Shown piece by piece: positions 272 to 20,567 of a stretch of 64,000 nt of DNA; the stretch's first letter is position 1, and every line of letters starts with the position of its first letter. The notes under the pieces were generated by a model. It was given only the letters and a program-made list of their open reading frames with translations. It did not search any database and was not told the origin of the DNA. Source of the DNA: Planctomycetaceae bacterium (GTDB taxonomy: Bacteria; Planctomycetota; Planctomycetia; Planctomycetales; Planctomycetaceae); the NCBI GenBank assembly GCA_021732845.1, contig JAKFUF010000051.1:1-64000 (forward strand), written 5' to 3'. Position numbers and translations under genes: made by a program.

Positions 272-1924
272 ATGATCCCGGCTATTCTTCAACGTGGGAC
301 TTCGCGATTCTGGTACGTCATCTGTCTGTCGTTGATTTCACTCTGTCTACCGCCGGCCGTCATGGCAGCGGATGACATGGCACCCCGGCAGGCTGAGATG
401 GCGGGGTACCTCCTCGTCCCGCATGGCAAAGTCGATGCACGGTACAACGCCGGGTTCTCGATGTATGTGGCGGCCTGGCCGCTGCTGAAGAACTATCCAG
501 GACAAGACTTTCAGAGTGGACTGTTCGGAACCTGGATGTTCGCCCGGCTCGATGGGCCAAAGCCGGAGAAAATCTACTCCGACATTGAGGGTGGCCTCGG
601 CTGGTGGCGGGATACCCGCTTCGCCACCGAGACGCCGAAGTTCATCATGGGCGGCGTGGCCCTGAATTTCGTCGAATGGGCGAACGGTCCCGGGGCCGGA
701 AAGGGTCGGAACTGGCAGAAGCCCGCCGGCCATTACGCCATCGCTCAACTCAGCCCGTGGGTCCTGTGGCCACCCGATGGCTTGAACCTGAAACAGGGAA
801 CGTCAGGTGAGCTGTTCGGATATGGCTACCTCCCCTTGCCCCTCACGTCGCCCAAGAAGACCACCACCGGAGCGGATGTGCCGACCGGCGACCAATGTTG
901 GACGCTGTTCCTGAACACCGGCAACTTCAAGGGACCGGTGACGTTCTTCATGCCGTACTTCTGGTCGCGGCCGACAATCGAGAAGCCCGAATTCGCCGGA
1001 CTGTTCCTCGACACGCGCCCGTCCGAGCCGAATAAAGCCATCCAGATGGAGACCCAGCATATCCCGGCCTACATCGGCCAGGACGCGAAAGGCGACACGT
1101 TTGCACGAGTCGCCCCGACACTCTTTCCGAGAACGGCGGACAGGGAAGCGCCGCTCATTCATCGCATTACGGCTTACAACAAGGCCGCGTTGTGGGACGG
1201 TGTGCAGGCGTGGTTCGAGGGTGGCAAAGAAGTGTCCGGCCGTATCGACGCACAGGCGGCCGCCGTTCACACGTTTGAGAGCAGGGGGGGCGCGACATGG
1301 CAAATCTACACGCCGAATACTTCGCGAGACAAAAAAGTTCCGCTCGCCTGGAGTTCTTTCGCCACCCCCGTCGCGCTCGATGACACCACATACGGCTACA
1401 AATGGGACACCACCTCGGTGTCGAACAATGCGACGACGATCACGCTCCCCGAGTACTACCGTTTGACCAGGGACGCCGGGAACAAGGAACGGTGGTTGGT
1501 CGTGGACCCGAAGGAAGTTCCGGCCGAAACCGGACTGGCCAAGGTGGAGTTCCCGAAGCGGCCCGGACCGGACCGAAGGCCGTATGTCACCCCCGACGAG
1601 GCCGACAGTTGCTGGAGGACACCCGGTCCGGCAGCCGGGCCGTTCGAGGCGAAGCTGGGTGATGGCAGCGTGGTCACATACAATTGGTATCGCTTCGCTG
1701 ACCAGCCGGCGCTGCTGAACGCCGACCTGACCGACGCCGAACGCGAGAGCCTTCAGAAGCGGGTGGAATTGCTCCACAAGCACTGGACCAGGGATCGGGA
1801 ATACCTGCCGCCGCCGACGGTTGGCAAGCTGGCCGATCTCGATCCGGCCGTGATCGTGGCTCCTCCAAAAGGTCTTGAGATCGGCTACGTGCCAATCGTC
1901 ACCCGGCAGGCAGCGCAAGAGTGA
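272..1924 (+). CDS. Secreted protein of unknown function
   Basis: This 550-residue protein has a clear Sec signal peptide: a hydrophobic stretch at residues 13-30 and a likely cleavage after AVMA at about 32. The mature part is rich in Trp, Tyr and Pro (for example LGWWRD and MPYFWSRP), which suggests a globular extracytoplasmic protein. No catalytic motif or known domain was recognised. The ATG at 272 lacks a strong ribosome binding site but gives the signal peptide directly. The gene ends inside the possible GTG start of the TspO gene (GTGA overlap at 1921-1924), so the two may be translationally coupled. Coding is supported by length and by the leader; the function is unknown. Confidence 0.75.
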
Positions 1925-1950
1925 TCACGAAACAGGCGGTGAAAGTGGTC

Positions 1951-2436
1951 ATGAATGAGCGGACTCGCTGGTTTGGCCTGGTCCTGTTCGTCTTGATCTG
2001 CCTGGGGGCAGGCGGGCTCGGAGCCAGCGCCACGACACCAGAGATCGATGGCTGGTATCGGACAATTGTCAAGCCGGAATGGAACCCACCGAACTGGGTC
2101 TTTGGACCGGTTTGGACAACACTGTTCGTCCTGATGGGGATCTCAGCCTGGTTGGTGTGGAAGCCAGCAGGTTTCAGGGCCGCAGCCACGCCGTTGGCGC
2201 TGTTTGCAGCGCAGTTGACGTTCAACGTGGCTTGGTCCTGGATCTTCTTCGGGATGCACCAGATCGGCTGGGCCGTGATCGAGATCCTCATCCTCTGGGC
2301 GGCGATTCTGGCGACAACCGTGGCGTTCTTTCGTCGCTCGAAGCCCGCGGGCTGGTTGCTGGTCCCGTACCTGGGCTGGGTGAGTTTCGCGACCATGCTC
2401 AACTTCGCGATCTGGCGGCTGAATGCCGGGCGATAA
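1951..2436 (+). CDS. tspO: TspO/MBR family membrane protein
   Basis: TspO proteins are five-helix membrane proteins that bind porphyrins and cholesterol-like ligands and act in tetrapyrrole or stress responses. This 161-residue product has about five hydrophobic segments. It carries the family's Trp-rich loop after helix 1 ([15 protein letters not shown], about residues 44-58) and the later [11 protein letters not shown] motif. The ATG at 1951 gives the usual family length. An in-frame GTG at 1921 overlaps the stop of the upstream gene and would add ten residues. The pairing with a secreted unknown protein is not a known TspO context. The family call is secure; the ligand is not known. Confidence 0.88.
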
Positions 2437-2470
2437 ACAATCAAAAACCTCGGGAAGAAATCAATCGATC

Positions 2471-4132
2471 ATGAGATGCATTCGATTCGTCTGGAAGCAG
2501 CCATTGATCGCGTTGTTTCTAGCCTTTGTGGCCCTGCCTCCCTTACAGGCAGATGATGAGACAACGGTGCGGGTCTTCATCTTCGCCGGCCAGTCCAACA
2601 TGGTTGGTTCCGACTCGAAGGTGCGGGATATTCAGCAATTCCCTCCATTTGTTGGCCTGGACGCTCCACAATCCCGTGTCCGCTACTCGTATTGTCTCGG
2701 GCGGGAAGACAAGACGACTTCGGATGGGTGGGTGAATCTACAACCGGTCGACAACGTGGTCGGTCCCGAACTGAGCTTTGCCCGGAGGGTGACGCAGAAC
2801 ATCACCGCCCCCATCGCGATCATCAAGATCGCCGCTGGCGGCACACATCTGGGTGGCGACTGGAATCCAGACGAACCGAGCGGCTTCAAGATGTACCCGC
2901 TGGCGCTCCAGTGGATTCAGAAGGCACTGGCCGATCTGGAGAAGCAAGGGATCAAGTATCGCCTGGAAGGATTCATGTGGCATCAGGGCGAGAACGACAT
3001 GTTCAATCAGGAGTACATGGACAACTATGGCCGGAACCTGAAAAACTTCCTCGCCAGTTGGCGGCGAGACTTGAAATCACCCGAATTGCGGTTCTACATC
3101 GGAGAACTCTGCACGAAGACCATTTGGGGAATGGACCTGCGTCCCCGCATGTACGCCATCAGCCTCGGTCAGAAACAAGTCACGGACAATGACCCCTTCG
3201 CGCAATACGTGCCCACTTCGCATGTCGGCGTGGAAATCGGCGGCGGAAGTGGGCTGCACTATCACTATGGTACGCTCGGCCAGTTGGAGCACGGGGTCAA
3301 CCATGCCGACATGTACCTGCGCAACATCGGTCAATTGAAGCCGGCAGCCCGTCCGCTCAAGGACTGGCCGTACGCCAAAGGTTCAACCGTGAAGCTCTTT
3401 GTCCTCGCGGGGCATCGAAACATGGAGGGGGAGACCGCCTTCGTGCAGCAGCTTGCCAACCTGGACCGCGGGACCGAACTGCTGCAGCACAATCAGGCAG
3501 TCGCGTACAAGTACAGCCTCGGCGGAGGCTACAAGGTCTCGGATGGCTGGGAGCCACTGGGACCGGCCGGGTTCTACGACACGTTCGGCCCGGAGCTGAG
3601 TTTCGGGGCCACGCTCCAGAAGAACGGTGTCTCCAACATCGCGATTGCCAAGTTCACACACAGCGGGTCGCAGATCATCGACTGGACTCCCGAGGGAAGC
3701 GAAGCCAAGTCACGGAATCTCTACTCGGCATTCATCGCATTCATCCAGAAGTCCGTCCAGGAATTGGAAGCCAAAGGCCATCGCGTTGAGCTTGCGGGAA
3801 TCTTCTATCACCTCGGGGAAAACGATATGTCCTGGGGACCATTCCGCCAGGGAGCCCCGCGACGACTGATGTCACTGGTCACACAGAGCCGCAGGGATCT
3901 CGGCCTGCCATCGCTCAAATGGTACGTCAGCCAGCAACCTCCGACAGTCGACAAGTCCGTGGACAACATTGACGTGACAGCCGAACTGCAAGAGGCGGTT
4001 GCATCGGACGGGCACCTGCTTCACATCAAGGTTTTCAACTTGCCGAAACAGGAGAAGCAGCTCGTCATCGACACTCGAGGCATTGTGTGGCTGGGGGAGG
4101 CGATCGCGAAGAAGTATCTGGATTCCCAGTAA
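2471..4132 (+). CDS. Secreted tandem sialate O-acetylesterase (SASA/CE6-like), second domain degenerate
   Basis: A signal peptide (residues 1-28, ending near PLQA) precedes two tandem copies of the SASA/DUF303 carbohydrate-esterase fold. Copy 1 (about 33-290) has the nucleophile motif AGQSNM with Ser42 and the WHQGEND motif at 170-176, both expected for an active SGNH-type acetylesterase. Copy 2 (about 308-550) aligns clearly but has AGHRNM, with Arg316 at the Ser position, and YHLGEND, with Leu in place of Gln. It is probably inactive, perhaps binding sugar or scaffolding. ATG at 2471 was chosen because it starts the leader and follows GGGAAG. The likely role is deacetylation of acetylated glycans outside the cytoplasm; the substrate is inferred only from the family. 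Confidence 0.85.
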   Translation: MRCIRFVWKQPLIALFLAFVALPPLQADDETTVRVFIFAGQSNMVGSDSKVRDIQQFPPFVGLDAPQSRVRYSYCLGREDKTTSDGWVNLQPVDNVVGPELSFARRVTQNITAPIAIIKIAAGGTHLGGDWNPDEPSGFKMYPLALQWIQKALADLEKQGIKYRLEGFMWHQGENDMFNQEYMDNYGRNLKNFLASWRRDLKSPELRFYIGELCTKTIWGMDLRPRMYAISLGQKQVTDNDPFAQYVPTSHVGVEIGGGSGLHYHYGTLGQLEHGVNHADMYLRNIGQLKPAARPLKDWPYAKGSTVKLFVLAGHRNMEGETAFVQQLANLDRGTELLQHNQAVAYKYSLGGGYKVSDGWEPLGPAGFYDTFGPELSFGATLQKNGVSNIAIAKFTHSGSQIIDWTPEGSEAKSRNLYSAFIAFIQKSVQELEAKGHRVELAGIFYHLGENDMSWGPFRQGAPRRLMSLVTQSRRDLGLPSLKWYVSQQPPTVDKSVDNIDVTAELQEAVASDGHLLHIKVFNLPKQEKQLVIDTRGIVWLGEAIAKKYLDSQ

Positions 4133-8958: not shown

Positions 8959-11900
8959 CTACCGCGAAAGTTGCTGCTCCAACCGCTGGATGTCGGCTTC
9001 CACCGTATTGAAACGCGCCGGCCAGGAGGTCGAACGGAGCTTTTTCAGCGTGTCCTTCGCGGCGTCCAGACGGCGTTCGTGAATTTGCGCTCCGGCGAGG
9101 CCCAGGAGGCCGGTCGGTTCCAACTCCCGCAGCACGGCGACGCGCTGCCATTGGTCAATCGCTTCCGGCCACCGGTTCTGTTCCTGCCGCAGTTGTGCCA
9201 GCGCCTGGTGGCTCTCACTCTCGTTCGCCTGCATTTCGATCATCGAGGTCCAGGCCCGCTCGGCATTGAGCGGCTGTTCCAGGCTTTTGAACTTTTCACC
9301 GAGGGACCGGTACAAGTCCAGTTCCCGCGGCAGCAGACGAATCGCGGCGAGGGTCTGGCTGGCTGCCAGTTGGGGCTGCATCAGCGATTCGTAGCAGGCG
9401 ATCAGCTCCTTCTGCGATTCGATGTCGTTGGGCTCCAGCTCCGTCGCCAGTTTGTACTGCAGGACGGCCTCCGCCAGCTTGCCCCGCTCCTTCAGCACAC
9501 GGCCGAGAGTCTTGCGAACCAGCGGCCGATCGGCCTTGGTTGTGGCGACCTGCTGATCCAGGAAGGCCACATACGCAGTCAGATCGGGTGACTGTTCAAT
9601 GACATGCCGCAGGGCGTCGATGGCGGAACGCTGGTTGTGCTGGTCGCGGCCCCACGAGACGACCGCTCCCATTGCCGCGTCCACCGCTTCCGGAGTCCGC
9701 TGCAGCCCGGCATAGGCCGACGCCTGCTGTCCGTAGTAGCTGGAAAGTGTCCCATCGCCGATGCCACGGTTGGGTGCCGTCCGCTCACGCTCGCTGATCG
9801 CCTCCTTGAAGTAGGCCACGGACTGTTCATAAAGCTGAGTATGCAGGCAGACCGCGCCAAGCTCGGACATCGCCCCTTCGGTCCAGCGGTTCTCCAGGTG
9901 GAAATGGGCGTTGGTCTGGGTCAGCAACTCCTGCAGTTCCGCTTTGCGGTTGGTGTGGAACAGCGCTCTGAGCAATTGGACGCGGTACTGCATGGCGTCG
10001 GGGTTGGCGGCGATCAGCCGCTGCAGCAAGGCGACGGATTCTCCGTAGCGGGACTTGTCATGCAGAAAGGTCACCAGCCGCGACTGGCCGTCTGTATCGA
10101 GAATCTTCTGGCCGTCGGCGATGAACAGAATTTCGATGGCCCGGTCTTCGCGTGAAATGCCATGGAAGAAGTATTCGGCCAGGTACACCACGTGTGCCGC
10201 GGAGTTCTTTTTACGCGAATAGACCTCTTCGGCGGCCGCCGCGAAGTCCGCGGACTTGTTTTCCCAGTAGTAGCCGTAGTTGCGGCGGTAGATGTACGGG
10301 TTGTTGTATGTCCGCGATTCGAGGTCTTTTTTCATTTCACGGAGGACAATCTTCAGCAGGCGTCGTGACAGCTCCGTCGGCAGGGTCCATTTGGCCTCTT
10401 CCGATCCCCAGTAGGCCAGGCGGTAGGCGTTCTGCTGCCAGCCAGCCTGATGGCTCCACGCGAACCACCGTGGCTCCTGCTCGATCCGCGTGACGACGAA
10501 TTCCATCGCCGCGACCGCGCCCGAGATCGCCCGGATGGTTTCGGCAACGGTGCTGACCAGTGTGCTGTATTCATTGGTCTGGCGGAGCAGCACGCCCGGC
10601 AACAGCGTCTTGCTGAACTGGTCCAGATCGGCGGCCACACCCGGAAGATGCTTGCCGTGTGCGACGCGGAACAGATCACACAACTGCCGCACCACGGTGG
10701 CGCGGTGCCCATGATCGGGTGTGTCCAACTCCAACTCCATCTTGGCCAGCACCGCCTTGTAGAGCCCCTCTCCCGTACCCAGGGAAACGGTGCCACCATG
10801 GTCCACCGCCCGCTGATACAACGCGAACAGCCGCTGCATCGCCCAGTATTTCTGGTCTGGAACCAGTGGCTGCCGTTGCAACTCCAGCAGATAGCGTTCG
10901 CCGTCGGCAAAGTGCTGGCGGGCTTCGTAGTGTCCGATGAGGGCTTCAATCGCGAAGCGGGCGGTCCCCGACAGCAGCCCGCCGTTGTTCGCGGCATAAG
11001 TACTCAGAGATGTCACCAGCAGGTCGATGCCTTCCTGCCGGCGGTCGTAGTGGCCCAGTGCCCGGGCGAAGGCGACGGTCACTCCCAGGTGATCCACCGA
11101 GCCGACAGGCTCCGCCTTGTGCAGTTCGTCGAGTTCCCGCAACTGCTCCTGCGCCAGGGTGGGCTGCGAGATGCTGCCGAGGCTGGCCAACAGGTCGGCC
11201 ATCTGCCGTCGTTCGCCTTCAGACCACTCGCGGCGGTAGGCCCGCTGCATGGCGGCCAGCGCCTTGGCGGCATGCACACCGCCCTGGTTCTGAACTTCCG
11301 CCGCGCGGCGCTCGACAAGCGTTTCCAGCAGGTCCAGCGCACGCTGATTGACGTCCGTTCTCGCCTTGGAGCGGAGAGTGGCGATGTGAGCCACGAGCTG
11401 GTCGGCCGTGGCTTCTTCCCGCATCTCATTCAGCACGCTGCTGATGTTCTCCATCAACGGATACACCCTTCCTGCCGTGTGGCCGACCACGGCGTCGGCA
11501 AGACCGGTCAGCAGCCGGAAGTCGCGGGTCGATTGATACCAGTTCTGCAACAGGCTGGTGTAGCTGGCGGGGCTCTGGGATTTCTCCAGCAGCACGCCGA
11601 ACATCAGCAGGTCTTTGTCACTGACCTGAGTCGATGTGGGAACGGCATTTGGCGGCGGGTTCTGCAACTGGTACAGCCGCTGATGAAGCGCATTGTTCAG
11701 CGAGTACTCCTCGGCCACGGCCATCGCCTCAAGCTGGCTTTGGCGGGACTCGGGCTTCTTGTCAAGCACCAGATACCACGCCGCCAACGCTTGATGTTCG
11801 CGCGGACCGAGCAGTTCCCGTTCGCGGGCTGTTTCAAACAGCCGTACCGCATCTTCGAGCTTCCCCTGCTCCGCCAGCAGGTAACCCTGCATCGTCTGCC

Positions 11901-14900
11901 ATGTCTGCTCCGGATCATTCTGCATCCACTGACGCAGCACGGTCTCCAGTTCCTTCGGCTTGTCAAGCGCGATCAGCAACCGCACCTTCCATCCCTTCCA
12001 GTGGGCTGCATCGCCTTCGGCAGCCACGCCGGCATCAATGTATTTCTGCACGCGCTCCACCAGGGCCGGGTCGGCCTTGGGATGGGCGGCCAGCGCCGGC
12101 AGCAGGGCCAGCATCCGTTCCTGCAACAGCCGGGTGGCCCGGGCAGGCACTGTCTCAGGTGCGGGTTCGCCCGCCTTGCCGAACGGTTCTGCCGGGAGTT
12201 GTTCCCAGCACTCGCCCGCCAGTTTGTTCAGGTCACGCTGAAGCCGATATTCCAGCACCAGCCGCTCGGCGTTCATCCAAGCGGCAAGTGTCGCTTGCTC
12301 GGCGGCGGACAGGGCACGCTGTTCATTCAGCCGTTGAGCCACGCCATTGAGCGCGGTGGTCTGCCATTCCTTTTGCCTGTCCGCGAGCTGCGTTCGCGTC
12401 AGCCCATCCAAACGGCCGGCCGCCGTCTTGGCGACCTCGAAGCGGTCTTTCAACAGCTTGTCGACCAGCCTCAGCAACGCGGAGAGCCTCAGCCGAAGAT
12501 TCTCTTCAGTCAAAGTCGCGTTCTGGTGAGACAACTTGGGCAGCAGCTCGAACAACTCCTTCTCAATGGATTCGGACCATGTTTGCGAGAACAGGTGATC
12601 GTACAGTTCCTGCAGTGCCTGGCTGCGGTGCTGAGCGGAAGCGGTCTCCACCTGCAGGTGGTAGAACGCCGTGATCTCGACCGTTGGGCGGTAGTTCCGG
12701 ACCATCCAGCCATAGGTGCTTCCCAGTTGCCACTTCTCGTCGGGCTTGGCCGCCGCCTGCCAGCGGGCGCGAAGCTTCTGCATGACCCGGTTTCGCAGGT
12801 CTTCCGGCACGGTGTGATTGGAAAGCATCCAGCCCATAAATCGGTTCAGCACGGATGGGGACAGTGTGTCGACCTCCGCATCGACGACGCCGGTCGCCTG
12901 TTGGAGCAAAAACTGGTAGCCGTCAGTCTGTTCCAGCCGGCCGCTGGAGACTTGCTGTGCCAGCCATCCCCAGGATTCATTTCGCCCCAGCACCAGCGCG
13001 GCTTTCGCCAACGGCATGCCGAAACGCGGGTCGATGTACTGGCTGTACATGCCGTGCCCCTGACCCAGCGCCTGTTGCACTGCGGCGGACAGCTTCGCCG
13101 CCGCAGCGGTCGCTGGAGCGGGAAGATTCTTCGCGGCAGCCGGGTCGAGGGGCTGCGCTGGAGTGGCGGGAACCATCCAGTCGTCGATCGTCTTGTAGGC
13201 GACATCCAGCCGATCCAGCCGAACCAAGGCCGCGAGATACCGCGCATAGGCATCATTGTTTTCGGGGTTTCGCGCCATCCAGGCGGTCAGGTAGGTCACC
13301 TCATCGGCGTAGCGGCCTTCATTTTCCAGTTGTTGTGCCACCATGCTCCGAATCGCAGCCTCCTCGCTCGGCTCCCAAGCGGTTCCGCCTTGCAGCGCCC
13401 GCACACTCCAGGCGATTCCGGCAGGGCTGTCGCCAGCGTTGAACAGCGCCTGGCTGTACGCGATCTGCAGCGAGAGATCGGTGGGCTCACCCTCGGCCAT
13501 CTGCCTGGTGAGGGTGAGCGCCTGGTCAGGACGGTTGGCGGCGGCCAGCAAACCCGCTTGCGACTGCGTCCAGCTTCGCGGACCGCGAGCCACCGCGGGC
13601 TGGCGGTCGTAAACCGGCTTCAACACGGCATGCAGCCCCAACAGTTCCTGCGAGGTCATGACGGAGCCAGCCACGGCCCGGGTGGCATTGGCGAGGAACA
13701 GGTCGTCAACGACTGGCTGCGCGGCGAGTTGCTGGGCGTAGGCCGCGAGATCCGCTTTCAGCTCGGCATGCTGCCGGCCTTCTTTTTGCAGAGCCCGCCG
13801 GACCCAAGCGAGCCCGGGTTTGTCGCCAGCCAGTTTTTCGATCTTCGTCCATTCTTCAAAGACCCTGGCCCACTGCTGCCGCGATTCATACTTCAACAGC
13901 AGCAACACATGGTCAAGAACTTTTCCTTCGCCAGCGGCGGTGCGGCGCAGCGCGTCCGCCCATTCGGGAATCTCGTTCTCCCGAATGAGGAATGTCGTGT
14001 CGCGGAAGGCGAGCGTGTTTTTGAACGAGTTGGCGTACGCCGCGGCGTCCAGCGGATTGACCGACAGTTTCGTCAGCAACGTCCGGCGACCCTTGGCGTC
14101 AAGGACTTCCGTGCGTGTTGGCCACCAGCTTCCACCCGCCTCCACGAAATCGTTGAACGTCGTTTTGCCTGTTGTGACAGCGTTCACCCGCGTCTCGTGC
14201 TCCAACATCACGTGCCGCATCGTGTCGATGAGGAACAACATTTCCCAACCGGACTGATTGTCCTGCGTGATTGTCAAACGCACGCGGTCTGCCCCCAGTG
14301 GCTCAACCGCTGGCACCATGCTGGCATAAGTCACAGCCAGCGACGTCATGGAATTATCGGGCAGATCGAGCGGCGGTGCGGTGGTCTCCGCGGCAACGGA
14401 GGGGCGCACGCGTCCCAGGAGGTAGGCGAGCGACATGGCTCCGCGCTCCTGCGGATCGCACCACTCGACCAGCGATTGTTCGCCGGCGGTTGTGGTCTGT
14501 TTGGCCCACGACTTCTGAGCCACGAGGTATCGCGCAGTCGATTGATACGAGAGTTCGCCGCGCGGGGTGTAATGATCCGCGACGCGTGTCACTTCCAGGC
14601 CGCCCTGCAGATTGGCGAACGTCGGCACGCGGACCAGACTTGCAGTCAACGTCTGGATTTCCGCCGGCCAGGGCGACGGCAGGGGCACCGCTGCGGTTGC
14701 AGGGGTGACGGCCAGTGGCGGGAAATACTGGTCAACCCACGTTCCATACGGCTGTGCTTCATAGCCATACTGGTAGCGTCCCCGTCCCCTGGAGGGGCCA
14801 CCAAAACCTCCGCCACCGAAGCCTCCGCCGAGACCGCCAAACCGGCCACCGAGCCCGCCCATCGGCTTGCCCATGGGCATGTTGAGCCCGCGGCTGCCGA

Positions 14901-17900
14901 ACGACGGCATGACTCCGAAGTCTTCATACACGACGTAGTCACTCAAGTCTGACCGCTTCCGTTCCGCTTTCTCTGCCCGGAGTGCACCGTCCAATTCTCC
15001 TCCGCGAGAATTGAACACCTCGTCTTCGGCTGGCAGCCCGTCCAAGTTGTCCTTCGTGTCTTTGTCCGCCTCGAAGTCGGAGTCACGCCGACTGTCCGGT
15101 GCGGAATCCCACGCGGATTGTCTCGTGAGTTCGTCGCCGAGCGATTCAAACCGGTCGACCCGGCTGGTGTCGAAGAAATTTGAACCCGACCAGGATTGCG
15201 GTCCGCTCGCCGCAGAAACCTTCAATCGGCGTCCGAGAGCTGTCGCGCGACCGACTGGCGCGCTGGATTCGCCAAACGCCGGGTAGGCCCAGTTCGACTG
15301 GTTTCGGTTGAATTCAAACACGTCTGGGTTGCGGCCCAGCCCTTCAAATCCCCGCAACACCGACTGCCGCAGGTTGAGCCTCCATGCTCCGGCCTGCTGC
15401 ATTTGCTGCTGGACGAGGGCGAATGTCGCGTCGTCGCGACCATCCTGGAAGTACTTCTCGCCATCCCGCATGCGGAACCGCCGCTGCACCTTGAAGCGTT
15501 CGCGGTCGGCATCGGATTCCAACACCAGCAGCGAGGTGTACGGGGTGATGATGTTGAACTCTTCCGAGAGACTGATCACCTCGTCGCGGATGGCGGGGGC
15601 CTGCCCCTGCTCCAACAGGGAGTCCAAGTGCATGCGTGCCCACAGGCGGGGGATGAACTCGTTCCCCTGCTCCGCATCCTGGAACGACACCTTCGCCCGG
15701 AAGCGGACGGGGGTCGTGCCCTGCTTGGCCGTGACAATCACTTCGCCGGTCTGGTCCGCGCCCTGCGGCAGGTAACGGCCGAGGATGATCTGCTGTGAGC
15801 CCGGGGGCAGGTTTGGCAGGGTCCGTGGATAGACCCGCGCGGTGCGAATTCCCTGGAATTCGACCTGCATGTCCCGCAGGCCCGGACGTTCGAGTTCGTT
15901 CAACAGCTCAAACGCCGCCACCTGCGGGCCATGTTCCCCGTTCACATGCCGGACTGTGCCACCATTCAGTGCCGCCAGTGTCTGCAGGATTCCGGACTCG
16001 TAACTGCTGCCGACGGAGATCGTGTGGACCACCCCCTGCGGATTTCCGGCATAGAGCGCCCGCAAACGCTCGGCCGCCGCCTGGGGATTGGCGTCGCGCG
16101 TGGTGGGGATGCCATCGCCCACATAGACGATTTGCGGGACCGCACGAGTCGCCGCGGCCTTGTCCCTGGCCGCCGCCGGAGCATCGGTTGTGGCCTTGGC
16201 TTCGGCCACGGACTGCGTCATCCGGGCTGCCATCTTCAGCCCTTCACCCAGCGTCACATCCAGGTCGGTCCAACCCAGCGATGCCCGCTGTTCCAGCTTC
16301 TTCCGCGATTCGGCGACATTGTCCGAGGTGGCGCTGACGGGCGCGGAAAACGCCCATTCACACCCGACATCGCAGCAGCCGACATTGAACGTGTCCTGGG
16401 GCGTCAACGCACCCAGCAACCCTGCGACGACCTCACCCTGCTTTTCGCGGCTGGCGGCGTCCATCGACGCGGAGGTGTCGGCCAGGATGACCAGCGGCAG
16501 CGGCGTGCCGCCGTTCGGCAGGACATCCCGTTCCCACTGTGTCTCCGCGGGCGGAGTGACCTGCAGCAGAAAGTAGCCATCCTCACCCCGGCGATGCGGG
16601 ATCAGCACCAGGTCATTCTGGCGGCTTTGCTCGGTGTCAAGCTGCACACAAACTTCGAAGTCACGGGTTGGCGTGTAATCCTGCACGCTGTAATCGGCCT
16701 GGGCCGCGTGCGGCGTGGCTTGAATCCGCGCGGTATGTGTCGGACAGGTAAAGGTCTTCAGCGGCAGGGCCGACTGCACCTGGACCTGCACGCCCAGATC
16801 GCGCAACGGATGCTGCCGCAACAGTTCGCTTTGCAAGGCGTAGCTGTAGTGATAGCTGTTGCCCCGCAGCGGCAGGACCTGCGTGTACGTGATCCGGATC
16901 CGCTTCTCACTGTGGCCTTCGATGGGAAACACGCGGGCCTTGAAGATGTTGCCGCCGGTCCATTCCAGCAGGCCCGGATCGCGTTTCTCCCGCAGGATCG
17001 TCTCGTAGATTTCCCGCGCCCGCTGCTTCTCGACGACATCCGCCTCCACCAGATCGTTGCCGATCCACATCGCGAAACCAGAGATTGACGCATCCTGCGG
17101 CAGCGGGAAGTAAAACACCCCCTCCATCCGCGCCGGCGTGTGATTGATGAACGATTCTTCAACCACGGTCCGGGCAATCTGGTCGCGAATGTCGACCGTC
17201 ACCTTGTGATAGCCCACCGTCAGCGGCACCATCCGCGTGTCAGGTGTTCCCGGTTCGGCCGGTTTCGCGAGTAGCGATCCAAGGGACTCCTGAACCGCCG
17301 TCCCTTTGAATCCGGCCAGCCACTTCGCCTCGACAGCGGGATTCTCCAACTGCACCAGCTTCTCGTTCTGAACCGCATACACCGCGGACTTGACGGCCGA
17401 CAACTGTTCCTTGCCTGGACCAAACAGGCTGATGGGGGCCGCTTCTTCGGCCACGATCTCTGCCTGGCCGTAGTACAGGCGGATTTGATCGGGTTTGATC
17501 AATTCCACCAGTGATCCCGGTCCCACGGTCACGCTGGTGTTTTTGACCAGCTTGAGCCCGACGGCGTTCGCTCCGCGGGAGTCGGTCCGAACCTGGTCGC
17601 CAAGTCGCAACAGAGGCTTGCCTGTCACCGGCGTCCACCGGTCGTGGCTCATCGGACGCAAGGCCACCACGCCTTGCACATCGACAATTTTCCCGATCCG
17701 ACCGTCTTCCGTCAGCGTCTCTTTGACGACAAACTTGTTGCCGAAGGGTTCGTTCACAGCAACTTCTTCAGCCGCCTGCTTCTTGGCCTTTTGACCAACG
17801 CTGCTGTTCAGGGTGACCACCGTCTGCGTTCTGTACGGTGAAGCATACTGCTGCCTTGGCATGGGGTCGGCAACTTTTGGCGCTGTCACATATTTCTTGT

Positions 17901-19308
17901 TTTCTCCCGACTTCGCCTCGACTTCGGGCTGAGCCACCGCTGCGGCGGGCGCTGGAGGAGCCGGTGGCTCCTGATTTTGACGCGACTTTGTAAAATCTGT
18001 CCCGTAAGATTGGCGGTTCCGGGGGGGCTGCCCGACCTGCTGTGTGTTGGCATCGGGTTTGGCCTTGAGCGTTTTCGGGGAATTTTGCTCTGGTCCCGAC
18101 GCAGCCTTGACCTTTGACCGATCGTGCGTGTTCGCTCCCGCCCCCGATGTCACGCCATCGGCGGGGTCCGACTTCTTCACTACGGACTTATCCGTGGAAT
18201 CCTCGACCGTCGCAGTCCGGTTGTCGACCGCCCGTGTCTCTTTGGAAGCGACTTCCTTCATCTCGGCCTTGTCAACCGGCACGCCCGCCGCAGCACCGCC
18301 GGTTGGCCAGTCTCCGTTCTGTTTGTCCCTTTCTGGAGCGGGATAGGAGGGCGCGTCTTCAGCCACAGTTCTCGGAACTTCGAACTCCGCCAGGTAGCGG
18401 GTGACCACCCGCTGCAACGCCTTGGATTTCGGATCAACGGTGACCTGCAGTTCGACAGGCTGGTTGAAGGTGTTGACCTGCGTTTCATAGAGAAGTTGCG
18501 GGTTGCCCTGAGGGTCGTTGACCTGCTGCGGATAGGCCATCGCCAGTTGCTGCTTCTGCGCCAGCATTTCATGCGATGTCTCCGGCGGACATGCCAGGAC
18601 GCGCATGAAATTTGTCAGCGTGCCGTTGTCTGCCGGCAGCAGCGAGAGCTGCGCCGTGTTCCGCGCCTCGTTGATGTTCCAGAGGTTGTTTCCCAGCAGC
18701 AGTTGAACATCGCCGTTGGAATTCTCCACCCGCAGATTGCCATTGTAGGCAAAGATTTCTCGTTGAAGTCCGTTGTCCTCGGCCTGCAAATGGAGCGCCG
18801 CATCATTGGCCGCCAGTTCAAACACGGCGGCCAGCGGCGGGCCCAGTTTCGCGCTGCCACTTCCCGCAGCACCCCGCGAGTCGAGAGTTGTTCCGTCCAG
18901 CCGCGTGGAAGTCACCGACAACGCGTCAAACCGCACCAGGTCCGTGTTCGAGGCGGGAGGAAAGGGAGACTGCTGGAAAACCAGCATTGAAATCATGGCG
19001 AAGGCCAACATGGCGGCGCAGGTGCGGACGGCAAGCGGCAGCATGGGACGCTTCTCCAAGGCGAGACTGCTGGAGGTCGATACCGGTCGCGGAAGCGCCC
19101 TGGGGAATTCGCCGCCACCCGTCGCTGGGACTGGTTTGGGTGCAACTGGAAGGCCGGGCGGCATCTGCGCGGTGGCGAGGAATTCCTGAGTCGTGCGCTC
19201 TCGCAGGGCGTGGAGGAATTCCCGGTCGGTCGCCGGTTCAGACCGGCGCGCTGCGCCAAACAGCGCTGCAAACCGCTCGTCATCGCGATCAGGAATTTCA
19301 GGCGTCAT
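8959..19308 (-). CDS. Giant membrane-anchored FecR-like / VIT / von Willebrand A / TPR protein
   Basis: One uninterrupted frame encodes about 3,449 residues. In order: a cytosolic N-terminus of about 90 residues without zinc-binding Cys; a single transmembrane helix (about 90-113); a beta-rich region; a Pro/Ala/Lys-rich linker (about 370-530); a FecR-like domain (about 540-630, GKIVDVQGVVALR and LRLGDQVRTDSRG); a VIT domain (about 690-810); and a vWA domain (about 935-1110) with an intact MIDAS (DTSAS, with Thr in GWTDLD and Asp in VYVGDG). A Gly-rich strip (about 1475-1515) follows, then a lipoprotein-sorting-like segment (about 1600-1800) and a long alpha-helical TPR-like tail (about 1950-3449). 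The ECF sigma gene lies upstream on the same strand, so an anti-sigma or receptor role is inferred. ATG 19308 was chosen because earlier in-frame codons look non-coding. Confidence 0.85.
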   Translation of the reverse strand: MTPEIPDRDDERFAALFGAARRSEPATDREFLHALRERTTQEFLATAQMPPGLPVAPKPVPATGGGEFPRALPRPVSTSSSLALEKRPMLPLAVRTCAAMLAFAMISMLVFQQSPFPPASNTDLVRFDALSVTSTRLDGTTLDSRGAAGSGSAKLGPPLAAVFELAANDAALHLQAEDNGLQREIFAYNGNLRVENSNGDVQLLLGNNLWNINEARNTAQLSLLPADNGTLTNFMRVLACPPETSHEMLAQKQQLAMAYPQQVNDPQGNPQLLYETQVNTFNQPVELQVTVDPKSKALQRVVTRYLAEFEVPRTVAEDAPSYPAPERDKQNGDWPTGGAAAGVPVDKAEMKEVASKETRAVDNRTATVEDSTDKSVVKKSDPADGVTSGAGANTHDRSKVKAASGPEQNSPKTLKAKPDANTQQVGQPPRNRQSYGTDFTKSRQNQEPPAPPAPAAAVAQPEVEAKSGENKKYVTAPKVADPMPRQQYASPYRTQTVVTLNSSVGQKAKKQAAEEVAVNEPFGNKFVVKETLTEDGRIGKIVDVQGVVALRPMSHDRWTPVTGKPLLRLGDQVRTDSRGANAVGLKLVKNTSVTVGPGSLVELIKPDQIRLYYGQAEIVAEEAAPISLFGPGKEQLSAVKSAVYAVQNEKLVQLENPAVEAKWLAGFKGTAVQESLGSLLAKPAEPGTPDTRMVPLTVGYHKVTVDIRDQIARTVVEESFINHTPARMEGVFYFPLPQDASISGFAMWIGNDLVEADVVEKQRAREIYETILREKRDPGLLEWTGGNIFKARVFPIEGHSEKRIRITYTQVLPLRGNSYHYSYALQSELLRQHPLRDLGVQVQVQSALPLKTFTCPTHTARIQATPHAAQADYSVQDYTPTRDFEVCVQLDTEQSRQNDLVLIPHRRGEDGYFLLQVTPPAETQWERDVLPNGGTPLPLVILADTSASMDAASREKQGEVVAGLLGALTPQDTFNVGCCDVGCEWAFSAPVSATSDNVAESRKKLEQRASLGWTDLDVTLGEGLKMAARMTQSVAEAKATTDAPAAARDKAAATRAVPQIVYVGDGIPTTRDANPQAAAERLRALYAGNPQGVVHTISVGSSYESGILQTLAALNGGTVRHVNGEHGPQVAAFELLNELERPGLRDMQVEFQGIRTARVYPRTLPNLPPGSQQIILGRYLPQGADQTGEVIVTAKQGTTPVRFRAKVSFQDAEQGNEFIPRLWARMHLDSLLEQGQAPAIRDEVISLSEEFNIITPYTSLLVLESDADRERFKVQRRFRMRDGEKYFQDGRDDATFALVQQQMQQAGAWRLNLRQSVLRGFEGLGRNPDVFEFNRNQSNWAYPAFGESSAPVGRATALGRRLKVSAASGPQSWSGSNFFDTSRVDRFESLGDELTRQSAWDSAPDSRRDSDFEADKDTKDNLDGLPAEDEVFNSRGGELDGALRAEKAERKRSDLSDYVVYEDFGVMPSFGSRGLNMPMGKPMGGLGGRFGGLGGGFGGGGFGGPSRGRGRYQYGYEAQPYGTWVDQYFPPLAVTPATAAVPLPSPWPAEIQTLTASLVRVPTFANLQGGLEVTRVADHYTPRGELSYQSTARYLVAQKSWAKQTTTAGEQSLVEWCDPQERGAMSLAYLLGRVRPSVAAETTAPPLDLPDNSMTSLAVTYASMVPAVEPLGADRVRLTITQDNQSGWEMLFLIDTMRHVMLEHETRVNAVTTGKTTFNDFVEAGGSWWPTRTEVLDAKGRRTLLTKLSVNPLDAAAYANSFKNTLAFRDTTFLIRENEIPEWADALRRTAAGEGKVLDHVLLLLKYESRQQWARVFEEWTKIEKLAGDKPGLAWVRRALQKEGRQHAELKADLAAYAQQLAAQPVVDDLFLANATRAVAGSVMTSQELLGLHAVLKPVYDRQPAVARGPRSWTQSQAGLLAAANRPDQALTLTRQMAEGEPTDLSLQIAYSQALFNAGDSPAGIAWSVRALQGGTAWEPSEEAAIRSMVAQQLENEGRYADEVTYLTAWMARNPENNDAYARYLAALVRLDRLDVAYKTIDDWMVPATPAQPLDPAAAKNLPAPATAAAAKLSAAVQQALGQGHGMYSQYIDPRFGMPLAKAALVLGRNESWGWLAQQVSSGRLEQTDGYQFLLQQATGVVDAEVDTLSPSVLNRFMGWMLSNHTVPEDLRNRVMQKLRARWQAAAKPDEKWQLGSTYGWMVRNYRPTVEITAFYHLQVETASAQHRSQALQELYDHLFSQTWSESIEKELFELLPKLSHQNATLTEENLRLRLSALLRLVDKLLKDRFEVAKTAAGRLDGLTRTQLADRQKEWQTTALNGVAQRLNEQRALSAAEQATLAAWMNAERLVLEYRLQRDLNKLAGECWEQLPAEPFGKAGEPAPETVPARATRLLQERMLALLPALAAHPKADPALVERVQKYIDAGVAAEGDAAHWKGWKVRLLIALDKPKELETVLRQWMQNDPEQTWQTMQGYLLAEQGKLEDAVRLFETARERELLGPREHQALAAWYLVLDKKPESRQSQLEAMAVAEEYSLNNALHQRLYQLQNPPPNAVPTSTQVSDKDLLMFGVLLEKSQSPASYTSLLQNWYQSTRDFRLLTGLADAVVGHTAGRVYPLMENISSVLNEMREEATADQLVAHIATLRSKARTDVNQRALDLLETLVERRAAEVQNQGGVHAAKALAAMQRAYRREWSEGERRQMADLLASLGSISQPTLAQEQLRELDELHKAEPVGSVDHLGVTVAFARALGHYDRRQEGIDLLVTSLSTYAANNGGLLSGTARFAIEALIGHYEARQHFADGERYLLELQRQPLVPDQKYWAMQRLFALYQRAVDHGGTVSLGTGEGLYKAVLAKMELELDTPDHGHRATVVRQLCDLFRVAHGKHLPGVAADLDQFSKTLLPGVLLRQTNEYSTLVSTVAETIRAISGAVAAMEFVVTRIEQEPRWFAWSHQAGWQQNAYRLAYWGSEEAKWTLPTELSRRLLKIVLREMKKDLESRTYNNPYIYRRNYGYYWENKSADFAAAAEEVYSRKKNSAAHVVYLAEYFFHGISREDRAIEILFIADGQKILDTDGQSRLVTFLHDKSRYGESVALLQRLIAANPDAMQYRVQLLRALFHTNRKAELQELLTQTNAHFHLENRWTEGAMSELGAVCLHTQLYEQSVAYFKEAISERERTAPNRGIGDGTLSSYYGQQASAYAGLQRTPEAVDAAMGAVVSWGRDQHNQRSAIDALRHVIEQSPDLTAYVAFLDQQVATTKADRPLVRKTLGRVLKERGKLAEAVLQYKLATELEPNDIESQKELIACYESLMQPQLAASQTLAAIRLLPRELDLYRSLGEKFKSLEQPLNAERAWTSMIEMQANESESHQALAQLRQEQNRWPEAIDQWQRVAVLRELEPTGLLGLAGAQIHERRLDAAKDTLKKLRSTSWPARFNTVEADIQRLEQQLSR

Positions 19309-19335
19309 GGTCGAAGAACCAGTAGTGATCTGTGG

Positions 19336-19352
19336 GCCAGGCTCAGCCTGGC
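19336..19352. repeat. Short palindrome in the leader of the giant gene
   Basis: GCCAGGCTCAGCCTGGC is an 8-bp stem around a single central base, 28 nt before the ATG of the minus-strand giant gene. It could fold in the 5' leader or be an operator. No U-run follows. Confidence 0.4.
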
Positions 19353-19466
19353 GCGGGAATGGATCGATCAATGCAGAGGAACAGGGGCGACAAACGCAAA
19401 AGATTGCATCACATCAAAAACCGGCTCTTTTATGCGACAGCCGGCAAACAAAAAAGCCTTTTTTTG

Positions 19467-19612
19467 AACCACGAAAGGCACGAAGACCACGAAAGAAATC
19501 CTCCTCAGCGCCGAGTCTTTTCGAGAGCCATGTCACGGACTCTGGGGGATGCTTCAAGGACAAGTCATCGATCGATCCTTTTCACTTTCGTGTCCTTCGT
19601 GCTTTTCGTGGT
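19467..19612. repeat. Two-armed inverted repeat built of ACGAA 9-mers
   Basis: The left arm starts at 19467 and the right arm lies at 19585-19612. Reversed and complemented, the right arm matches 25 of 28 nt of the left. Each arm is three 9-nt units of the type CCACGAAAG / GCACGAAGA. The arms are separated by about 87 nt of unrelated sequence. It sits between the sigma factor gene and the giant gene. Similar arms occur at 22189-22338, 55488-55707 and 57554-57652. Confidence 0.8.
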
Positions 19613-19651
19613 AAAAATAAGCAACTTACTGTTCAAAGGATTGTTCGCGGC

Positions 19652-20284
19652 TCACTCGAGCTTGGGTTTCTCCGCTCCCGCCATCACCGCCTCTAAAATC
19701 TCGTCGGACATGCCCGCCAATGCCTCCCGAAAGGCCTGCCGGGCACGGGCCAGTTTGGATCGCACGGCAGTGATGGTCGTTCCCAAATTGAGCGACAAAT
19801 CCTCCACCGAGGTTCCATCCAGATACCGGCCAGCCAGCAGTTGTTCGTAATCGGCCGGCAGCCGGGTCAACACAACTCTCACAAACTCCGCGAGTTCGGC
19901 AGTTTCCAGCGCCTCCAACGGACTCTCGTGGTCACCTTCGAGCCACCGTTGCAGCCGGCCGTCGCCGGTCATCCGCACGCACTCGGCATGGCGTGCTGGT
20001 TCGTGCCGGTTCGCCCGGCGATAGTGCAGAGCCACGTGATTGCGGGCGATGCCACACAGCCAGATCCACAGGGAGCCTTTGTCGGGATCGTAGTTCGCGG
20101 CGGAACGGGCCGCGGCGAGAAAGGTTTCCTGAACGACATCCGCCACATCCGGGGCGTGCGCCCCCATCCGACGCGACACCCAGCGCCACAGTGGCTCCGC
20201 GTGCGCATCGTAAAACGCCCGCCAAGCCTCGGCCTGACCGATGCCCAGCCCGCGAGCGAGTTGTCGCTCCTGGTTGATGTCCAT
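19652..20284 (-). CDS. ECF-family RNA polymerase sigma factor
   Basis: The 210-residue product has sigma region 2 (about 25-90, with DVADVVQETFLAAAR and WLCGIARN) and region 4 (about 135-190, with LPADYEQLLAGRYLDG and a helix-turn-helix up to SKLARARQAFREAL). It lacks the long C-terminal extensions of some planctomycete sigma factors. ATG 20284 starts the normal domain order (MDINQERQLARGLG). The open frame continues upstream but looks non-coding. It would direct RNA polymerase to a dedicated regulon. The giant membrane protein gene follows 343 nt downstream on the same strand and is the obvious candidate partner or target. No classical zinc anti-sigma gene is adjacent. Confidence 0.92.
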   Translation of the reverse strand: MDINQERQLARGLGIGQAEAWRAFYDAHAEPLWRWVSRRMGAHAPDVADVVQETFLAAARSAANYDPDKGSLWIWLCGIARNHVALHYRRANRHEPARHAECVRMTGDGRLQRWLEGDHESPLEALETAELAEFVRVVLTRLPADYEQLLAGRYLDGTSVEDLSLNLGTTITAVRSKLARARQAFREALAGMSDEILEAVMAGAEKPKLE

Positions 20285-20567
20285 ACAGTTTTTGCTGCGA
20301 CGCGTGCTGTCGATTCGCTGCGATGTGTCAGTGATTTGCGCCACGCCGTCCGGGTGGATCGGCAAATTCTGGAAGTGGTTCCGGATTTCCGCCACGCCAC
20401 TGCGCTCCGCCGCGGCCTTCTCGCGATTCTCCGGCGATGCGGCATTTTTCCCGCCCGCCCGTCTCGGTGCAAGGATCCTGCGGTTCTTCCGGCTCAGATC
20501 CAGAAACTCGAGCTGGAGTTGGCTGAGGCTTATGGCGATTCTCGGTCTTTCCTCCAGGAAGATTCCA

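Follow-up and report, generated by a model that had tools for sequence, protein, structure and literature searches.

A giant VIT-vWA membrane protein as a candidate anti-sigma factor and receptor for its neighbouring ECF sigma factor in Planctomycetaceae

In the stretch of Planctomycetaceae DNA analysed here (64,000 nucleotides (nt) of contig JAKFUF010000051.1, hereafter the window), a gene for an extracytoplasmic function (ECF) sigma factor is followed 343 nt downstream on the same strand by one uninterrupted gene for a membrane protein of 3,449 residues, hereafter the giant. An earlier note on this DNA had described this arrangement correctly and had proposed a one-protein sensing and anti-sigma system that takes its input through a surface adhesion module. 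Our comparative analysis makes it probable that the giant serves the sigma factor encoded upstream as its own membrane-bound anti-sigma factor and receptor, both being expressed from an autoregulated operon. The regulatory half of the earlier proposal gains support from the genomes: the pair is conserved, the cytosolic head of the giant tracks the sigma factor, and the ectodomain includes a FecR fold. The other half, in which the VIT-vWA module is the input, has fared less well, given relatives that have the module without the sigma factor and a small regulator, in genome G030, in which it was not detected. If our reading is right, this is a one-protein transmembrane sigma regulator of exceptional size, carrying a VIT-vWA module with a metal-ion-dependent adhesion site (MIDAS) and a TPR arm.

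Conservation of the sigma-giant gene pair

The sigma protein has the features of an ECF sigma factor, with regions 2 and 4 over the Pfam cut-off within 210 residues (Sigma70_r2, E=3e-14; Sigma70_r4_2, E=1.4e-8), and its full-length profile matches the SigW and RpoE structures in the PDB. A group number for this sigma factor may already exist. When its subfamily was searched in 297 genomes of the class (E<=1e-40, best 10 candidates per genome scored), it was present in 34, of which 33 also carry the giant; conversely, the sigma factor is present in 33 of the 35 giant-bearing genomes among those 297. The two exceptions are G082, where the sigma frame next to the giant is partial (locus L087), and G113, with a sigma fragment (L088). 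A giant core follows 35 of the 37 sigma genes on the same strand, at a distance of 305-1928 nt; of the remaining two, one is on another contig near the contig end (G122) and the other precedes the small regulator of G030. In a wider search of the class for the core (397 genomes, E<=1e-150, best 2 giant candidates per genome scored), 48 genomes had it. A pair not kept in relatives, which the earlier note regarded as counting against its proposal, is therefore not what the genomes contain. A first set of relatives had already placed an ECF gene directly upstream in seven of the eight orthologous loci with upstream sequence, L042 being the exception (a contig end cuts two of these eight).

A scan of a named genome collection with the window protein as query returned nothing, and an alignment-based scan returned 125 relatives, the best 80 of which were used; the relatives are labelled as Planctomycetota, Verrucomicrobiota, Kiritimatiellota, Lentisphaerota and Latescibacterota, apart from some odd labels. 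An ECF gene lies directly upstream in 47 of the 80 loci, was not found in 23, and could not be assessed in 10, which had too little upstream sequence and were put in no group. The 47 comprise 46 loci found by script and L139, which the script had counted among 24 loci without an adjacent sigma gene and which was reassigned because its sigma match falls inside an over-long giant frame. With the giant start set at the first ATG that reaches at most 30 nt into the sigma gene, the two genes overlap in 28 of the 46 measured pairs, and in 15 of the 46 the overlap is an identical 4 nt. This gene order is that of a putative operon. Within the flanks available, no neighbour family but the sigma gene (39 loci) keeps a fixed position. 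Another cluster, of 15 loci on the opposite strand at the sigma position, we read as antisense frames of the sigma gene, and the next comprises nine loci at scattered distances. With a TonB-dependent transducer in mind, we found no non-sigma family at a fixed place among these neighbours, which were not annotated by family. Frames homologous to the giant, about 3,000-3,400 codons long and with an upstream sigma gene, recur across many genomes, so the layout is not due to chance. Zavarzinella formosa DSM 19928 (L085) and Thalassoglobus neptunius KOR42 (L134) both carry the pair.

A second VIT-vWA family with frames of 1,900-2,640 codons was also seen (L043-L051). No sigma gene of the subfamily was found alongside it, save for a weak ECF match near L043 (E=4e-6), and three of the nine loci had less than 700 nt upstream. 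The source genome itself (9.25 Mb in 262 contigs) encodes two more VIT proteins, in frames of 874 and 1,277 codons (G000:C44:18744-19067 and G000:C48:2730-3062).

The cytosolic head and its association with the sigma factor

The giant has one strong hydrophobic segment, from residue 92, which leaves a head of about 90 residues in front of it and agrees with the short cytosolic N-terminus and single membrane helix described earlier. A cytosolic head followed by one helix is a feature of FecR-type regulators, and it is borne out here by hydropathy and by head lengths in 46 relatives. As a single-pass inner-membrane protein, the giant would have its ectodomain of about 3,340 residues in the periplasm, which makes the surface location in the earlier note tentative. 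Sigma-linked giants (46 loci) have 60-149 residues in front of the helix (median 80.5). Giants without an adjacent sigma gene mostly begin with a plain signal peptide a short way before the core. This sigma-less set holds 21 loci, with L088 set apart. Three of them (L136, L137 and L161) have no ATG; in the other 18, counting only Met residues within 170 residues of the helix, the head measured from its first ATG does not exceed 36 residues in 17 loci and has 63 in the last, a doubtful long frame.

The association was also followed on a tree built from 80 cores, those of the window and of 79 other loci (L131 was left out for its broken frame). Sigma adjacency changes seven times on this tree, as against a mean of 18.9 after shuffling, and none of 500 shuffles gave so low a number. 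Head presence, coded by hand from the sequences (L136, L137 and L161 included, L152 left out of this trait), changes together with the sigma gene in six of six informative independent pairs (p=0.031). One tree pair has no head difference, in our view because of L088, which has a head and a sigma match of 44 residues. Two Planctomycetaceae giants inside the sigma-linked clade, L097 and L099, have a signal peptide, and no sigma gene was found in front of them; they seem to have lost head and sigma together.

Heads of the window type, which we call class A, follow the pattern D..L..LL...D.DAP.PD...L.RLR..S...F. A different head, class B, occurs in L139, L140, L145, L148 and L156; each of these giants is preceded by an ECF gene and has a FecR region after the head, and PF04773 (FecR) matches four of the five, one of them over the cut-off (E=8.1e-9). 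Five class A heads compared with Pfam gave nothing beyond one chance-level match, and two class B heads scored with zf-HC2 (E=0.0075 and 0.22).

Head and sigma also vary together. Among 38 class A pairs, distances between heads and distances between sigma factors remain correlated once core distances are removed (partial r 0.52, 0/2000 permutations); this set includes the window and near-duplicates, and excludes class B loci L140, L145, L148 and L156 and the partial-sigma loci L087, L098, L106, L117 and L133. In the 31 loci that have the LolA-like domain the head-sigma value is 0.50, as against -0.08 for that domain, a control that lies between the head and the core.

Extracytoplasmic domains and the predicted promoter

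One part past the membrane helix is a FecR-like domain. A profile of this region from nine orthologues, compared with 17 FecR domains of the phylum and one such region from a class B giant, matched with hhalign at 93.4% (E=2.6e-7), as against 0.3% for a control domain. In an AlphaFold2 model of giant residues 115-715, model residues 421 to 550 have a block predicted local distance difference test score (pLDDT) above 90, and a second-look aligner ranks FecR-fold anti-sigma structures first (PupR, Z 9.5; BDI_1681, Z 9.0 and 8.8). Profile and model together support a FecR anti-sigma fold for this part, and the earlier worry that the region might score as another fold was not borne out.

Between the helix and the FecR-like part sits a domain absent from the earlier description. 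Its fold comparison, made on a partly low-confidence model, gives LolA with Z up to 7.4 and RseB with Z 5.7, and is suggestive of a LolA-like assignment next to the membrane. A second LolA-like region lies further along, likewise absent from the earlier description, where PF17131 matches 10 of 18 members (best E=2.5e-4), the window member not being among them. The two regions have no profile match to each other, and neither the LolA-like nor the FecR-like profile found an informative counterpart in the PDB.

The remaining domains are largely those originally described. The VIT assignment is certain from its Pfam match. The vWA domain is weak in Pfam (PF13768, E=0.0015, 19 bits, below the cut-off of 27); a phmmer match to ITIH4 covers residues 700-1292 (E=7e-24), and the DxSxS motif of the MIDAS is present in 79 of 79 homologous cores examined, with WT[DN] in 63 of 79. 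The very long TPR-like part claimed earlier stands in part: Pfam and OGT matches make TPR clear near the C-terminus (3267-3297; TPR_11 at 3269-3297, OGT TPRs at 3267-3398 with E=1.9e-15), those elsewhere are scattered (TPR_12 at 3146-3210, TPR_19 at 1921-1961), and the stretch between is presumed to continue the repeat. The strand opposite the giant gene holds an open frame of 1,500 codons (window 10450-14952, plus strand), probably a by-product of high-GC codon use.

A bipartite motif precedes the sigma genes, in the general form nGAATTCCGCGACACA-N13-GCGCAAATT. Scored with a matrix trained without the window, the window site reaches 21.4, a value that none of 1000 shuffles attained; it is the best site on both strands of the 64 kb, the runner-up (17.8) lying inside the giant gene. 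The motif was built from 37 of 43 upstream regions, leaving out near-duplicates L102, L103, L114, L115 and L154 and the too-short L133, as well as class B. On leaving each locus out in turn, 32 of the 37 score above the 99% point of shuffles and 24 above the best of 1480 shuffles, although these scores are not fully independent, because the motif seed came from the same data. The earlier note had suggested looking for a sigma promoter upstream of both genes; a site was found before the sigma gene, and none of the 15 best sites in the 64 kb falls in the gap before the giant, which fits a single autoregulated operon promoter. That the sigma factor itself uses the motif is our inference.

In the 297 genomes a strict form of the motif occurs at 23 sites in 21 genomes, as against three for a reversed control, and by our reading seven of the 23 are at sigma or giant loci (four intact sigma genes, the small version of G030 and two decayed-giant pieces). 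The other 16 share no common target when judged by the next open frame alone. In the source genome, 23 sites with up to two mismatches compare with 13 control sites, which is uninformative. Two loci have the motif followed by short giant-like pieces with no sigma match (L223/L241 in G255 and L224/L242 in G291), apparently operon remnants. Identical motif copies in L230 (G254) and L231 (G081), from one genus, come from genomes that gave no giant at E<=1e-150. Within the inverted repeat between the sigma and giant genes are units of the type CACGAAGGACACGAA; the genome has five exact copies of the 15-mer, and a reversed control has none.

Features of the sigma-giant locus in the window, with giant residues where applicable
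Feature	Position in window	Strand	Basis
Bipartite promoter-like motif, AGAATTTGCCGATCCA-N13-GCGCAAATC, upstream of the sigma gene	20333..20370	-	matrix score 21.4
ECF sigma factor gene	19652..20284	-	210 aa; PF04542, PF08281 and PF07638 over cut-off
Inverted repeat in the sigma-giant gap	19460..19620	.	36-nt arms, 83% complementary, 89 nt apart
Giant membrane protein gene	8959..19308	-	ATG start, 3,449 aa, one open frame, no internal stop
Cytosolic head, residues 1-88	19045..19308	-	class A pattern; alignments; co-variation with sigma
Membrane helix, residues about 92-110	18979..19035	-	hydropathy maximum 2.02 at residue 92
LolA/RseB-like domain (suggestive), residues about 152-345	18274..18855	-	second-look fold comparison, partly low-confidence model
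FecR-like domain, residues about 535-667	17308..17706	-	hhalign 93.4%; PupR Z 9.5, BDI_1681 Z 9.0
VIT domain, residues 701-808	16885..17208	-	PF08487, E=1.8e-28
vWA domain, residues 939-1119, MIDAS-type motif DTSAS	15952..16494	-	PF13768; ITIH4 match
Second LolA-like part, residues about 1540-1765	14014..14691	-	PF17131 LolA_like in relatives
TPR-like solenoid, residues about 1800-3449	8962..13911	-	Pfam TPR matches; OGT match

The small regulator of G030 separates the sigma-related parts from the rest. There (L240:13653-16866, minus strand), a sigma gene of the same subfamily stands behind the motif and overlaps by 11 nt the gene for an 861-residue regulator, which matches the giant in the head (E=6e-4) and in the FecR-like segment (E=8e-7). 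By our own reading of its sequence it appears also to have the membrane helix and a LolA-like region; no VIT, vWA or TPR was found in it by Pfam. Conversely, relatives that lack the sigma gene and begin with a plain signal peptide do have the VIT-vWA module. A sigma unit without the adhesion-type parts and a core without the sigma factor point to a receptor built from modules, and VIT-vWA may be dispensable for sigma control.

Alternative explanations and comparison with known systems

In the mechanism we propose, the head would hold the sigma factor at the inner membrane, and a signal from beyond that membrane, perhaps collected by the VIT-vWA and TPR parts, would be relayed via the membrane-proximal LolA/RseB-like and FecR-like domains. 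The sigma factor would then be released, probably through regulated cleavage within the membrane helix or close to it, and once free would transcribe its own operon from the motif and so renew both sigma factor and receptor. The source genome has S2P (Peptidase_M50) genes, and RseP is reported to cleave E. coli FecR (PMC8144685).

Several observations weigh against this proposal. Binding and inhibition of the sigma factor by the head are predicted from genome comparison; direct contact would produce the observed co-variation, and joint transfer of both could do so too. Neither head profile matched a solved anti-sigma domain in the PDB, and the class A and class B profiles do not match each other. 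A model of the sigma factor and head of one relative, from a 22-row alignment (a 60-row version was dropped, as it misplaced the heads), has two helices with block pLDDT 72-86, in which docking cannot be judged. Head and sigma factor are at odds in two loci: in L042 (G014) a head is present and no sigma gene was found in about 6 kb upstream, and in L088 (G113) the head is kept beside the 44-residue match. The FecR fold is drawn from hhalign and the second-look aligner, because Pfam FecR has no match in the window giant and Foldseek alone gave nothing for the model at E<=0.001 (PupR, E=0.23); PF04773 likewise has no match at E<=0.001 in the source genome. The Z scores for LolA and RseB (up to 7.4, with a root-mean-square deviation of at least 4.3 for several) may reflect a common arrangement only. 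Co-transcription in the window is made less sure by the 343-nt gap with its inverted repeat, a gap that exceeds all 46 measured pairs of the named collection (maximum 269), and the motif scans of the source genome and the 297 genomes identified no regulon beyond the operon.

These points have to be set against the other ways of explaining the locus. The giant might be an envelope or adhesion protein that is merely a target in the sigma operon and does not regulate the sigma factor. Both genes stand behind a single motif, as this would have it, and the core behind a plain signal peptide in sigma-less relatives evidently has a function of its own; such a target gene, however, leaves unexplained why the head goes with the sigma factor and co-varies with it, and why G030 keeps sigma, head, helix and FecR-like part with VIT, vWA and TPR undetected. 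We hold this to be improbable. A chance neighbourhood with mis-called domains, which could appeal to the missing Pfam FecR match, is scarcely credible: 35 of the 37 subfamily sigma genes precede a giant, the fold and profile matches speak against it, and the conservation of the pair already refutes it.

It is harder to separate an inhibitor from an activator or chaperone that the sigma factor needs for its activity. FecR-type regulators are not all pure inhibitors, and some may be needed for sigma activity; the head linkage, the co-variation and the conserved pair would fit any direct partner of the sigma factor. The sequence decides neither way. According to PMC8999054, control by inhibitory membrane regulators is the commonest mechanism. 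In our estimate the activator has a small chance. A more ambitious version of the receptor, to which we give a low probability, follows an integrin-like logic: the MIDAS-bearing VIT-vWA and the TPR-like arm of about 1,650 residues would bind a ligand and signal outside-in through the FecR-like and LolA-like parts to release the ECF sigma factor, and a plain secreted giant would have captured unrelated heads, class A and class B, more than once. For the anti-sigma receptor that we favour, the sigma-linked and sigma-less relatives would serve as natural controls, and the conserved motif and the small version of G030 make sigma control directly testable, in Zavarzinella formosa DSM 19928 and Thalassoglobus neptunius KOR42 as well.

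Among described systems, one likeness is to the marine sortase target protein (TIGR03788, E=7.5e-54) and the inter-alpha-trypsin inhibitor heavy chains (ITIH4), which share the VIT and vWA core. The giant is not itself a marine sortase target protein, its 183.2 bits being far under the cut-off of 551.65, and neither of these families is known to be tied to sigma factors. Clostridial RsgI proteins, the membrane anti-sigma factors of sigmaI, have large modular sensor ectodomains carrying binding modules; RsgI and the giant are both modular membrane regulators with outer binding modules, and they differ in sigma family and in sensor modules. With RseA/RseB and sigma-E the giant shares an outer-side LolA-fold domain beside a sigma regulator, a weak match to RseB (Z 5.7), and it differs in carrying the LolA-like domain within the membrane regulator itself. 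In Leptospira, a FecR-like regulator, LIC_12756, is paired with the ECF sigma factor LIC_12757, and its N-terminal domain is reported to be the key part for anti-sigma activity (PMC12155086, PMC13118517). Compared by description, that pair resembles ours in joining a FecR-like protein to an ECF sigma factor, and the parts of those papers that we consulted do not mention VIT, vWA or TPR.

The closest parallel is with the cell-surface signalling regulators FecI/FecR and PupI/PupR, where an ECF sigma gene stands beside a single-pass regulator whose cytosolic head is short and whose outer part has a FecR fold. The giant differs from them in its very large ectodomain with LolA-like, VIT, vWA and TPR parts, in the absence of a fixed neighbour family besides the sigma factor, and in a head that is unlike solved anti-sigma domains in sequence. 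We found no report of VIT-vWA or TPR parts tied to sigma control in the literature searched, which did not cover the main ECF classification or a planctomycete ECF study. By its testable features, the giant would work like a FecR-type membrane regulator that is predicted to bind its sigma factor; what sets it apart is its ectodomain, unlike any that we met in that literature.

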